This document shows, in pieces, positions 19,614 to 42,239 of a stretch of 64,000 nucleotides of DNA. Under the pieces are notes generated by a model that saw only the letters and a list, made by a program, of their open reading frames with translations, searched no databases and was not told where the DNA came from. A program made the translations under genes and the position numbers. Every line of letters begins with the position of its first letter. Within the stretch, counting starts at the first letter, position 1. Source of the stretch: Streptomyces odontomachi. Its GTDB lineage: Bacteria > Actinomycetota > Actinomycetes > Streptomycetales > Streptomycetaceae. The stretch lies in NCBI RefSeq assembly GCF_024435355.1, contig NZ_JAMJWG010000002.1:372001-436000 (forward strand), in the 5' to 3' direction.

Positions 19614-20729
19614 TCACCATCCCACCGACAGGAACTTGGCGATCGGTGGCCCGAACCGATCGGTGTCGATGAGGAACGCGTCATGTCCCTGGGGGGACTC
19701 CAACGGCAGGAACTGCACATCGGTGCCGCCTGCGGTGAGCCCCTCGGCGATCTGTTGCTGCTGCTTCAGCGGGAACAGGATGTCCGTGCCCACGCCCATC
19801 ACCAATGCCTTGTCCAGGCGCAGGCCCGACAGTGCGTCGCCCACCGGCACGCCGCAGCACTCGGCCAGGTCGAACTGGTCCATGGCATGGCTGAGGTAGA
19901 GGTAGCTGTTGGGGTCGAAGGCGTGCAGGAAACGGTGGGCGTGGAATTCCAGATAGCCCTCCATCTCGAATTCCATGCCGAACGGCACCTTCGCCGGGCG
20001 GCGCGGACCGCTCAGCCGTGCACGGCCGAACCGGCTCTCCCACTCCCCGGCCGAACGGTAGGTCACCATGCCCAGCTTGCGCGCGATCAGCATGCCACGC
20101 TGGGGATACCGCTGTGCGTGGTACCGGCCCTGGTCCCAGTGCGGGTCACTGCGGATCACCTCGCGTTGCAGCGACCTCAGGGCGATGGAGTACGGCAACG
20201 AGTGCACGGCGCCGGATATGTTGATGTGGCTCCGCGCTATTCCGGGATGCCGGGCGAGCAGCGCCAGCGCGCTCATTCCCCCCATGGAGGAGCCGATCAC
20301 GCAGTCCAGCCGCTCGAAACCCAGCGCGCGCACCGTGTAGGCAGCGGCGTCGGCGATGTCCTCCATCGTGAGGTCGGGGAAATCGAGCCGATAGGGCTCA
20401 CCCGTGCTCGGGTCGATCGAGGCGGGCCCCGTCGATCCCTTGCAACTCCCCAACGAGTTGACGCAGATCACATACCAGTGGTCCGTGTCGATGGGCTTTC
20501 CCGGCCCGAGCATGGCTTGCCACCATCCCGGGCTCGGGTCGTCCGGATGCGAGGCCGGGTGTGCATCGGCCGAGAGGCCGGTGAGGAGCAGGACGACACC
20601 ACGCGCCGTGTCCGTTTTCCCGTGGGTCTCGTAGCCGATGCGCGCACCGTGCAGCGTGCCACCGCGCTTCATCGGAAATCCGTCGGGCAGGTCGACGAAG
20701 CGCGTGGCAGGGGGGATGAATTCCCTCAT
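19614..20729 (-). CDS. L-serine O-acyltransferase (MetX/SST-DcsE type)
   Basis: A 371-residue alpha/beta-hydrolase-fold acyltransferase of the MetX superfamily. The nucleophile is Ser in GSSMGGMSAL and the C-terminal Asp/His pair lies in VMGVGTDILFP and SPQGHDAFL. The run NSLGSCKGSTGPASIDPSTG followed by GEPYRLDFPDLTMEDI resembles the serine O-succinyl/acetyltransferase branch (SST, DcsE of D-cycloserine) more than homoserine acetyltransferases, whose motif is NVLGGCQGTTGP. It would activate serine as O-acylserine. ATG 20729 has GGGGGAGAGG. It starts 20 nt after the CysK-like gene, its natural partner enzyme. It is the last gene of the leftward biosynthetic transcript. Confidence 0.75.
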   Translation of the reverse strand: MREFIPPATRFVDLPDGFPMKRGGTLHGARIGYETHGKTDTARGVVLLLTGLSADAHPASHPDDPSPGWWQAMLGPGKPIDTDHWYVICVNSLGSCKGSTGPASIDPSTGEPYRLDFPDLTMEDIADAAAYTVRALGFERLDCVIGSSMGGMSALALLARHPGIARSHINISGAVHSLPYSIALRSLQREVIRSDPHWDQGRYHAQRYPQRGMLIARKLGMVTYRSAGEWESRFGRARLSGPRRPAKVPFGMEFEMEGYLEFHAHRFLHAFDPNSYLYLSHAMDQFDLAECCGVPVGDALSGLRLDKALVMGVGTDILFPLKQQQQIAEGLTAGGTDVQFLPLESPQGHDAFLIDTDRFGPPIAKFLSVGW

Positions 20730-20749
20730 GCACCTCTCCCCCTTCAGGT

Positions 20750-21730
20750 TCAGGCGCCGCTGGGGCCCTCGTCGAGCGAGGTGAGCCATGCGTCGTCCGA
20801 GCCCTCGGCCAGTTCCTCGAACAGGTAGCTGGACAGATAGCGCTCGCCGGTGTCCGGCAGCATGACGAGCAGGACCGAGCCCTCCGGGGCGCTCTCCGCG
20901 ACGCGCAGCGCCGTCGCCACGGCGGCTCCGGCCGACATGCCGGTGAGGATCCCCTCCTCGGCGGCGAGCCGGCGGGCGGTCTCGCGTGCCACGGTCTCGT
21001 TCACGGTGGTGAGCTCGTCTATCACGCTCTCGTCGAGCACCCCGGGCACGAAGTTGGGGGCCAAGCCCTGGATCTTGTGGTGGTGCCACTCCCGGCCGGC
21101 CAGCACGGCGGCGTTCTCCGGCTCGAAGGTCACGATCCGCACACCGGGCCGGGCGAGCTTCAACATCTGGCCGACGCCGGTGAGGGTGCCGCTGGTGCCG
21201 GAGCCCGTGATGAAGTAGTCCAGCCGCTTCCCGGCGAAGTCGCTGAGGATCTCCGCCCCCGTGGTCTCCCGGTGGTAGGCGGGGTTGGCCGGGTTCTCGA
21301 ACTGCCGGGGCCGGAACCAGCCGTGCTTCTCCGCCAGCTCGTCGGCCCAGCGGTTTCCGCCGGCGCTGCCCGTCTCGGGCACGGGGAAGAGGAGGACCCT
21401 GCCGCCGTAGGCCCGGATGAGTTTGCGCCGCTCCACCGAGAAGGTGTCGCCCATGACCGCCACGAACTGGTAGCCGCGCGCCGCGGCCACCATCGCCAGC
21501 GCGATGCCCACATTGCCCGAGGTGCACTCCACGATCGTGTCGCCGGGCTTCAGTTCTCCCGACGCCTCGGCGTCGAGGATGACGGAGAGCGCGAGGCGGT
21601 CCTTCACCGACCCGCCGGGGTTGAACGCCTCCGCCTTCGCGTAGAGCGTGACGTGGTCGGGGGCGACGCGGTTCAGTCTGACGATGGGTGTGCGGCCGAT
21701 GGTGTCGAGAATGCTGTCGTAAAGAGGCAT
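20750..21730 (-). CDS. Cysteine-synthase-like beta-substituted alanine synthase
   Basis: A 326-residue fold-type II PLP enzyme of the CysK family: TIGRTPIVRLN, Schiff-base Lys in FNPGGSVKDRL, and GSGTSGTLTG for cofactor phosphate. Such enzymes replace the O-acyl group of O-acylserine by a nucleophile through an aminoacrylate. Two active-site loops differ from housekeeping CysK: TSGNVG where TSGNTG is usual, and GMSAGA where GISSGA is usual. A nucleophile other than sulphide is therefore plausible, as in DcsD (hydroxyurea) or cyanoalanine synthases. ATG 21730 has AAGGA upstream. It sits in the leftward operon ahead of the serine O-acyltransferase, so the pair should supply an unusual amino acid (or cysteine) to the NRPS. 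Confidence 0.8.
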   Translation of the reverse strand: MPLYDSILDTIGRTPIVRLNRVAPDHVTLYAKAEAFNPGGSVKDRLALSVILDAEASGELKPGDTIVECTSGNVGIALAMVAAARGYQFVAVMGDTFSVERRKLIRAYGGRVLLFPVPETGSAGGNRWADELAEKHGWFRPRQFENPANPAYHRETTGAEILSDFAGKRLDYFITGSGTSGTLTGVGQMLKLARPGVRIVTFEPENAAVLAGREWHHHKIQGLAPNFVPGVLDESVIDELTTVNETVARETARRLAAEEGILTGMSAGAAVATALRVAESAPEGSVLLVMLPDTGERYLSSYLFEELAEGSDDAWLTSLDEGPSGA

Positions 21731-41239: not shown

Positions 41240-41240
41240 C

Positions 41241-42239
41241 GTGGAAGAGCTGAAACTGGGCGACCTGAGCGTCTCCCGCATCGGGCTCGGCGCGATGGGC
41301 ATGTCCTTCGGCTACACCGGCGCGGGCACCGACGACGCGGAGTCCGTCCGGGCGATCCACCGCGCCGTCGAGCTGGGCGTGACACACCTCGACACGGCGG
41401 AGGGCTACGGCCCGTTCACCAACGAGGAACTGCTCGGCAGAGCGCTCAAGGGCCGTCGCGACGAGGTCGTCCTGGCCACGAAGTTCGGCCTGATCTCGCA
41501 TGTACCACCGGACCCGGCCCCGGCCGGCTCCGGTGCCCGGGACCTCGACAGCCGTCCGGCCAATGTCCGGGCGGCCGTGGAGGGTTCGTTGCGGCGCCTC
41601 GGCACCGATCACATCGACCTGTACTACCAGCACCGTGTCGATCCCGACACCCCGATCGAGGACACCGTCGGCGCCCTCGCCGAGCTGGTCGCCGAGGGCA
41701 AGGTCCGCCACATCGGGCTCTCCGAGGCCGGCGCGGAGACCATCCGCCGCGCCCACGCCGTGCACCCGATCACGGCGGTGCAGTCCGAGTACTCCCTGTG
41801 GACCCGCGATCCGGAAGCGCAGGTGCTGCCGGTGCTGCGGGAGCTCGGCATCGGATTCGTGGCCTACGCACCACTGGGCCACGGTTTCCTCACCGGCCAG
41901 GTCCGCTCGACGGGGCAGTTCCAGGCCACCGATCTCCGTGCGGACAATCCCCGCTTCACCGAGGAGAACCTCCGGCACAACCTGCGCATCGCCGACGCCG
42001 TGCAGGCCGTCGCCGCCGAGGCCGGGGCGACACCGGCGCAGGTCGCCCTGGCGTGGCTGCTCACCAGGGGCGACGGCATCTCCCCCATCCCCGGTACCCG
42101 CCGTACCGCCCGGGTGGAGGAGAACGCCGCCGCCGGTGATCTGCGGCTGACGCCCGAACAGCTCGACCGGCTCGACCGGCTCCCCCCTGCGGCGGGCGAG
42201 CACCACACGCCCGAGCAGATGCGGCAGCTGAACGGTTGA
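41241..42239 (+). CDS. Aldo/keto reductase
   Basis: A 332-residue TIM-barrel NADPH oxidoreductase: LGLGAMGMS-type N terminus, catalytic Asp and Tyr in HLDTAEGYGPFTNE, Lys in VLATKFGL, His in DLYYQHRVD, and the cofactor region PIPGTRRTARVEEN. GTG 41241 begins one base after the halogenase stop, with GAGGTG just upstream, so it is translationally coupled to the cluster. It may reduce the amino aldehyde released by the NRPS reductase domain to the primary alcohol that the CPT-like kinase would phosphorylate. It is the last cluster gene before a strong terminator. Confidence 0.8.
   Translation: MEELKLGDLSVSRIGLGAMGMSFGYTGAGTDDAESVRAIHRAVELGVTHLDTAEGYGPFTNEELLGRALKGRRDEVVLATKFGLISHVPPDPAPAGSGARDLDSRPANVRAAVEGSLRRLGTDHIDLYYQHRVDPDTPIEDTVGALAELVAEGKVRHIGLSEAGAETIRRAHAVHPITAVQSEYSLWTRDPEAQVLPVLRELGIGFVAYAPLGHGFLTGQVRSTGQFQATDLRADNPRFTEENLRHNLRIADAVQAVAAEAGATPAQVALAWLLTRGDGISPIPGTRRTARVEENAAAGDLRLTPEQLDRLDRLPPAAGEHHTPEQMRQLNG

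Follow-up and report, generated by a model that had tools for sequence, protein, structure and literature searches.

What is made by a gene cluster that carries the characteristic enzymes of chloramphenicol biosynthesis but none of the usual genes for its amino acid precursor? We examined such a cluster in a 64,000-nucleotide stretch of Streptomyces odontomachi (contig NZ_JAMJWG010000002.1, positions 372,001 to 436,000; hereafter the window), where 17 genes span positions 19614-42239 (22.6 kb). Chloramphenicol has for decades been almost alone among natural amphenicol families in having a known cluster. The region is genuine and intact, and it represents a branch of the amphenicol clusters that seems not to have been described. 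Taken as a whole, the evidence leans modestly towards a separate amphenicol branch with a phenylalanine-like substrate, extension by ATP-grasp ligases, and a swap in which a pair of genes of the D-cycloserine type, DcsE and DcsD, took the place of other genes. The cluster comprises the following features, including the remains ("scars") of three lost genes.

19614-20729, minus strand: DcsE-type L-serine O-acetyltransferase with a MetX fold (PDB 3VVL, 592 bits)
20750-21730, minus strand: DcsD-type O-ureido-L-serine synthase with a CysK fold (PDB 3X43, 548 bits)
21805-22791, minus strand: helix-turn-helix (HTH) regulator, counterpart of CmlR and StrR-like by its likeness to CmlR (Pfam HTH_23/HTH_24)
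22933-24300, minus strand: major facilitator superfamily (MFS) exporter, start uncertain (Pfam MFS_1)
24338-24871, minus strand: CPT, of the chloramphenicol phosphotransferase family, predicted self-resistance (NF033114)
24872-24948, minus strand: scar of a TauD-type dioxygenase gene, 3' end (DNA likeness to relatives)
25037-26374, minus strand: ATP-grasp ligase 1 (L-amino acid ligase 4WD3, 2.6e-14)
26371-27999, minus strand: CmlA diiron beta-hydroxylase (PF18456 CmlA_N, 201 bits)
28008-28272, minus strand: scar of a methyltransferase gene (DNA likeness to relatives)
28388-31300, minus strand: CmlP, a nonribosomal peptide synthetase with adenylation, thiolation and reductase (A-T-R) domains, code DAATVAAVCK
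31417-32580, minus strand: CmlH, free-standing condensation-fold protein, predicted dichloroacetyl transferase
32952-33644, plus strand: HAD phosphatase
33562-35202, minus strand: amino acid permease of the APC family (PF13520, 142 bits)
35283-35493, minus strand: scar of an aminotransferase gene, 3' end and region around the start (DNA likeness to relatives)
35504-36763, minus strand: ATP-grasp ligase 2 (PF13535, 57 bits; L-amino acid ligase BL00235 3VOT, 5e-21)
37058-37363, plus strand: CmlM acyl carrier protein
37360-38058, plus strand: CmlJ short-chain dehydrogenase (SDR)
38059-39438, plus strand: CmlK AMP-forming ligase
39524-41239, plus strand: CmlS FADH2 halogenase (NF033113, 1054 bits)
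41241-42239, plus strand: CmlT aldo-keto reductase

Every enzyme named in the initial annotation, which was made from the sequence alone, is present in an open frame, and CmlJ and CmlT add to its list. Homologues of CmlA, CmlP, CmlH, CmlM, CmlJ, CmlK and CmlS occur in the order of the chloramphenicol (cml) cluster. CmlS exceeds the NF033113 cut-off of 900 bits and scores 1031 bits against the CmlS structure 3I3L, CmlA scores 715 bits against the CmlA structures 5KIK/4JO0, and the small carrier protein CmlM carries the VFES serine. The regulator is 59% identical to the gene that occupies the cmlR position in S. pseudovenezuelae. Compared with the chloramphenicol cluster of S. venezuelae (sven0913-0929; PMC4249514), the window keeps the order and orientation of the cmlA-cmlP-cmlH and cmlM-J-K-S-T blocks and has a CmlR-like regulator; we saw the shared block order in S. 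pseudovenezuelae and other canonical loci. In contrast, the window is without cmlE, D, C and B, cmlI, L and N were not found in it, and its CmlP has another pocket code, while two ATP-grasp ligases, a permease, the HAD gene and CPT are added.

A CmlS search of named genomes returned 27 loci. Seven of these (L011-L015, L020, L032) have the canonical layout CmlA-CmlP-CmlH / CmlM-J-K-S, with 59-61% (CmlA), 45-47% (CmlP) and 57-62% (CmlH) identity to the window; six of them also gave a match for the aldo-keto reductase, the exception being L020. One, L032, lies on record GG657738, for which PMC4249514 names a chloramphenicol cluster with the S. venezuelae arrangement. Three other loci (L010, L016, L031), from Streptomyces sp. 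DH24, S. tardus P38-E01 and strain LS1784, share the layout of the window, and the other halves of their clusters were located via CmlA (84-86% identical). Similarly high identities were found for CmlP (68-70%), CmlH (70-73%), the permease (71-77%), ATP-grasp ligase 1 (68-74%) and ATP-grasp ligase 2 (73-76%), and the regulator is 68-71% identical in DH24 and LS1784. These sister clusters have the core, both ATP-grasp ligases, the permease, the HAD gene, CPT and the pocket code in common with the window, but each also has genes for a methyltransferase, a TauD protein and an aminotransferase, a different MFS exporter, and no DcsD or DcsE. The remaining 17 loci have different neighbourhoods.

CmlS occurs in 9 of 392 Streptomyces genomes, and of the four CmlS genomes followed by CmlA, the window's own belongs to the branch while the other three are canonical (60-61%). 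ATP-grasp ligase 1 matched at E<=1e-100 in eight of 394 family genomes: the window's; DH24, LS1784 and S. tardus at 68-73%; G409 with a partial match at 75%; and three at 43-49%. A protein search in which scoring was limited to the 7994 candidates with the most shared words gave at least 22 further homologues of 68-85% identity, not counting that of the window; the three known relatives are among them. Thus, the branch is not a singleton. G409 holds a further copy (L097-L098), which includes pieces of the methyltransferase, TauD and aminotransferase genes as well as the MFS type of the window (two pieces, 83% and 71%); decay or sequencing errors have fragmented this copy into many short frames. 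In S. tardus, a phosphopantetheinyl transferase-like gene, recognized by eye, lies beside the regulator (L054:16271-16927), and we saw no counterpart in the window. No account of such a cluster was found among the open-access papers searched. With high confidence, we regard the branch as distinct from chloramphenicol.

The adenylation pocket of CmlP differs from the chloramphenicol type. We aligned 11 CmlP proteins and placed the ten code positions by motif rather than by structure. All four branch members share the code DAATVAAVCK (the LS1784 protein being cut by a contig end), whereas the seven canonical proteins read DASMECAVCK, DASMQCAVCK, DATMQCAVCK or DATMQAAVCK. The fifth position, Glu or Gln in every canonical CmlP, is Val in the branch, and the pocket is not of the p-aminophenylalanine type. 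These pocket codes were not found in print. The substrate of CmlP is very likely an amino acid other than p-aminophenylalanine. Together with the core blocks, the code in four of four branch members supports the earlier proposal of amphenicol logic with a different side chain.

The initial annotation also saw no precursor genes in the window, and this stands: queries for DAHP synthase, PapA, PapB, PapC, CmlI, CmlL, CmlN and CmlF (the last three named by position) gave no tblastn match at E<=1e-6. The p-aminophenylalanine genes cmlB, C and D are absent from the cluster, and ATP-grasp ligase 2 and the permease occupy the place where cml has the CmlI N-oxygenase. Elsewhere in the genome, a PapA/PapB-type pair lies on another contig (G000:C1:142554-144939), with a PapA 60% identical to CmlB and a PapB-like gene at 33%, so p-aminophenylalanine may still be made in this cell. 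The pair, far from the cluster, is accompanied by a 406-residue protein without a Pfam family (G000:C1:142554-146169). The cluster could then make plain chloramphenicol or a close p-aminophenyl analogue from p-aminophenylalanine supplied by that pair. Five AurF-family genes in the genome, and a full-length PapA-type gene in S. tardus (55% identical), which may serve candicidin, would agree with such a product. However, no PapC match lies beside the pair, and the CmlI query matched none of the three AurF places examined of the five, so that the initial annotation's concern about precursor and N-oxygenase genes elsewhere in the genome is borne out only in part. Moreover, a search at E<=1e-60 gave no PapA-type match in DH24, which has the same code, and a partial one in LS1784, and the Glu or Gln kept by all seven canonical proteins is missing from the pocket. 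We consider plain chloramphenicol or such an analogue very improbable.

The comparison with the three relatives also revealed what the window has lost. In the relatives, an S-adenosylmethionine (SAM) methyltransferase gene sits between CmlA and CmlP, a TauD-type Fe/2-oxoglutarate dioxygenase gene between CPT and ATP-grasp ligase 1, and a fold-type-I aminotransferase gene between the permease and ATP-grasp ligase 2. All three genes are absent from the window, where the non-coding gaps at the matching places hold DNA remains of the corresponding gene. The methyltransferase scar (28008-28272) is 68% identical to DH24 over 274 columns (4e-15; 73.4 bits, shuffle maximum 25.6). The TauD scar (24872-24948) is 73% identical to S. 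tardus over 77 bp (42.8 bits, shuffle maximum 22.9) and 75% identical to DH24 over 89 bp (4e-11), an alignment that includes 12 bp of CPT. The aminotransferase scar consists of 35283-35322, 85% identical to DH24 over 40 bp (46.4 bits, shuffle maximum 30.1), and 35335-35493, 70% identical to LS1784 over 161 columns (1.9e-11). As a control, we compared the genes with 11 gaps, using 15 shuffles of two-base units per gene-gap pair. The best off-target scores were 27.4 bits for the methyltransferase, 27.4 for TauD and 33.7 for the aminotransferase; two of 30 off-target pairs slightly exceeded their own shuffles, namely the aminotransferase at 18800-19613 (33.7 vs 32.8 bits) and TauD at 22792-22932 (22.9 vs 21.1), and one tied.

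The three on-target scores stand above all off-target scores and shuffle maxima of the same gene; three separate deletions thus removed one gene set. The methyltransferase has not moved elsewhere as far as a genome search at E<=1e-5, run without a positive control, can tell, and TauD and the aminotransferase gave no match at E<=1e-6 in the window and 17 stretches and loci of the same genome, no genome-wide search having been made for them. Three losses among 12 other genes that remain open would fit the removal of a single functional module. Relatives of the aminotransferase (65%) and of ATP-grasp ligase 1 (48%) are neighbours in L100, a cluster of another kind, which suggests that the module probably feeds the ATP-grasp ligases; it probably does not feed CmlP, because the CmlP pocket is unchanged despite the loss.

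Alternatively, the cluster may be decaying and make nothing, as might be read from the three lost genes, from the broken copy in G409 and from dN/dS values that, for several genes, are somewhat raised in pairs involving the window compared with pairs of relatives. The rise is clearest for CPT (0.47-0.49 vs 0.20-0.25, about twofold), on which selection in the window may be weaker. Yet the 12 compared genes have no internal stops and dN/dS of 0.22-0.49 in the window's pairs, below 0.5 throughout. The sought motifs were all present in the 13 of 17 cluster proteins checked, although some of these motifs were taken from the sequence itself and they are only loose evidence of intactness. Decay is thus highly improbable.

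At the left edge of the cluster, beyond the regulator, the window instead carries two genes that the initial annotation took for a generic serine O-acyltransferase and CysK. They are better described as DcsE and DcsD of D-cycloserine biosynthesis. The CysK-like protein scores 548 bits against the O-ureido-L-serine synthase 3X43 and 306 against the best other enzyme; the MetX-like protein scores 592 bits against 3VVL, which we take to be the D-cycloserine enzyme despite its label of homoserine O-acetyltransferase, and 221 against the next unrelated sequence. DcsD was found in six other of the 392 Streptomyces genomes (79-80% identical), with CysK at 52-54% in seven more. In all six, the DcsD-DcsE pair lies among genes resembling dcsA, B, F and G (Pfam was run on the genes of one locus, L094), and the MetX genes adjoining DcsD in these D-cycloserine-type clusters are 67-75% identical to DcsE. 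DNA likeness covers 19616-21775 and then stops. The pair is what the window shares with the dcs cluster; in contrast, DcsA, B and G were not found in the window or the stretches of its own genome examined. We compared the dcs proteins starting at 5000-15500 of each of the six loci with the window and 11 such stretches, and the matches were DcsD, DcsE, an SDR at 26-29%, a permease at 26% and one other at 25%. Leftovers of a decayed D-cycloserine cluster were therefore rejected as the source of the pair, only weak paralogues and no other dcs gene having been found in the window and these 11 stretches.

Because DcsD and DcsE are absent from the clusters of all three relatives, the pair does not define the branch. 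It may replace the lost module, a suggestion in which our confidence falls a little short of even. A competing explanation keeps the same amphenicol branch but sees DcsD and DcsE as passengers or as cysteine supply, the ATP-grasp ligases using ordinary amino acids after the module was lost. The position of the pair at the edge and its absence from the relatives agree with this, as do the CysK relatives of at most 44% in the genomes of DH24, S. tardus and LS1784 and the score of DcsD against the cysteine synthase A model (373 bits, cut-off 351). So does the failure to find DcsB, which supplies hydroxyurea: in a genome assembly of 119 contigs that is 98.98% complete, a search with PF00491, a model that recognizes a DcsB protein with a score of 80 bits, gave one arginase only, and a DcsB query gave no match at E<=0.001 in a search without a positive control. 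That arginase, on the same contig (C32:514481), was ruled out as DcsB. On the other hand, the pair lies on the strand of the regulator, 74 bp behind it; both genes are open, with no dcs companion in the window or the 11 stretches beyond the 26-29% SDR paralogue; and the window's DcsD, at 78-80%, stands outside the other six, which are 84-94% identical among themselves, and departs at 16 of 95 otherwise fixed DcsD-specific positions, including F177S, F262L and I265M. We give the passenger or cysteine explanation an appreciable, though minority, chance.

A further protein that had been seen as a departure from chloramphenicol, the condensation-like protein, is in fact CmlH, present at 57-62% identity in all seven canonical clusters. 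It has no Pfam or NCBIfam family at E<=0.001, and three homologues carry the UniRef name Condensation domain-containing protein. A first structure model was poor (predicted local distance difference test (pLDDT) score 53, 10 sequences) and was superseded; the later model has the condensation-domain fold with the HxxxD active-site histidine. The high-confidence prediction for CmlH is thus a condensation domain of the nonribosomal peptide synthetase type that stands alone, and CmlH is therefore probably the dichloroacetyl transferase. The genes for this step in chloramphenicol are called obscure in PMC4249514.

Based on these assignments, we propose that the product would be an N-dichloroacetyl 2-amino-1-aryl-1,3-propanediol made from a phenylalanine-like amino acid and not from p-aminophenylalanine. 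CmlP would load the amino acid and CmlA would beta-hydroxylate it on the carrier; CmlK, CmlM, CmlJ and CmlS would prepare the dichloroacyl-carrier, from which CmlH would move the dichloroacetyl group onto the amine; and the reductase domain would release the amino diol. The two ATP-grasp ligases, with the gene for the first overlapping that of CmlA by 4 bp, would then join further amino acids to the aryl-propanediol, an extension that we find reasonably likely. In the relatives, the aminotransferase, TauD and methyltransferase would supply or trim the amino acid for these ligases. With the module deleted from the window, DcsE-DcsD would likely supply a beta-substituted alanine from O-acetyl-L-serine and a nucleophile other than hydroxyurea; this choice of nucleophile, which we infer from the sequences, is the weakest step of the scheme.

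CPT scores 256 bits against NF033114 (cut-off 250) and lies inside the cluster in the window and the relatives, with a second copy nearby in DH24. It would phosphorylate the product or a precursor in the cell, and the HAD phosphatase and the exporter would undo the phosphorylation during export. The HAD gene is relocated and inverted with respect to the three relatives, whose copies are flanked by CPT and the exporter. PMC8371330 describes S. tardus P38-E01 as chloramphenicol-resistant, names a CPT gene as the likely cause, and reports an antibacterial fraction of unknown identity. The proposed product, and the ribosome as its target, are inferred.

Several points weigh against this scheme. 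It is not obvious which group of an N-acylated amino diol could serve the ATP-grasp ligases as acceptor. DAATVAAVCK would be near the GrsA phenylalanine code, which serves as a lead, not a test. The retention of 79 of the 95 DcsD-specific positions argues for little functional change in DcsD. To these are added the PapA/PapB-type pair and the PapA-type gene of S. tardus, the raised dN/dS of CPT with the weaker selection it may reflect, the possible passenger status of DcsD and DcsE at the cluster edge, and the missing DcsB.

The CmlS search also brought to light other cluster types. Four loci (L017, L018, L021, L034) have two adjacent ATP-grasp units with CmlM-J-K-S, to which L018 (by Pfam) and L034 (by likeness) add a free-standing condensation protein together with a hexapeptide protein. 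These dichloroacetyl clusters share CmlM-J-K-S and two ATP-grasp units with the window, and L018 and L034 a condensation protein, but have no CmlP, CmlA or CmlH in the examined DNA, and their ligases are only 33-44% identical; their products are probably dichloroacetyl peptides. Other CmlM-J-K-S neighbourhoods (L009, L019, L022-L030, L033, L035), some cut by contig ends, have no CmlA or CmlH in the examined DNA; their hosts include Rathayibacter, Nocardia and Pseudomonas. It seems that the dichloroacetyl block moves as a single piece. Two distinct CmlS clusters occur in Streptomyces achromogenes NRRL B-2120 (L022, L025).

At its broadest, our analysis tentatively suggests a natural peptidyl-amphenicol family, made up of dichloroacetylated aryl-propanediols that ATP-grasp ligases lengthen, in which one strain might have swapped a three-gene module for DcsE-DcsD captured from a D-cycloserine cluster, uniting parts of two classical antibiotic pathways. 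The CmlH model provides a testable claim as to which chloramphenicol enzyme transfers the dichloroacetyl group. The module swap would be an experiment of nature on the question of which enzymes supply the ATP-grasp ligases. The sister branch, being more than a singleton, would offer direct access to new ribosome-site molecules, and the in-cluster resistance gene could guide the way to them.

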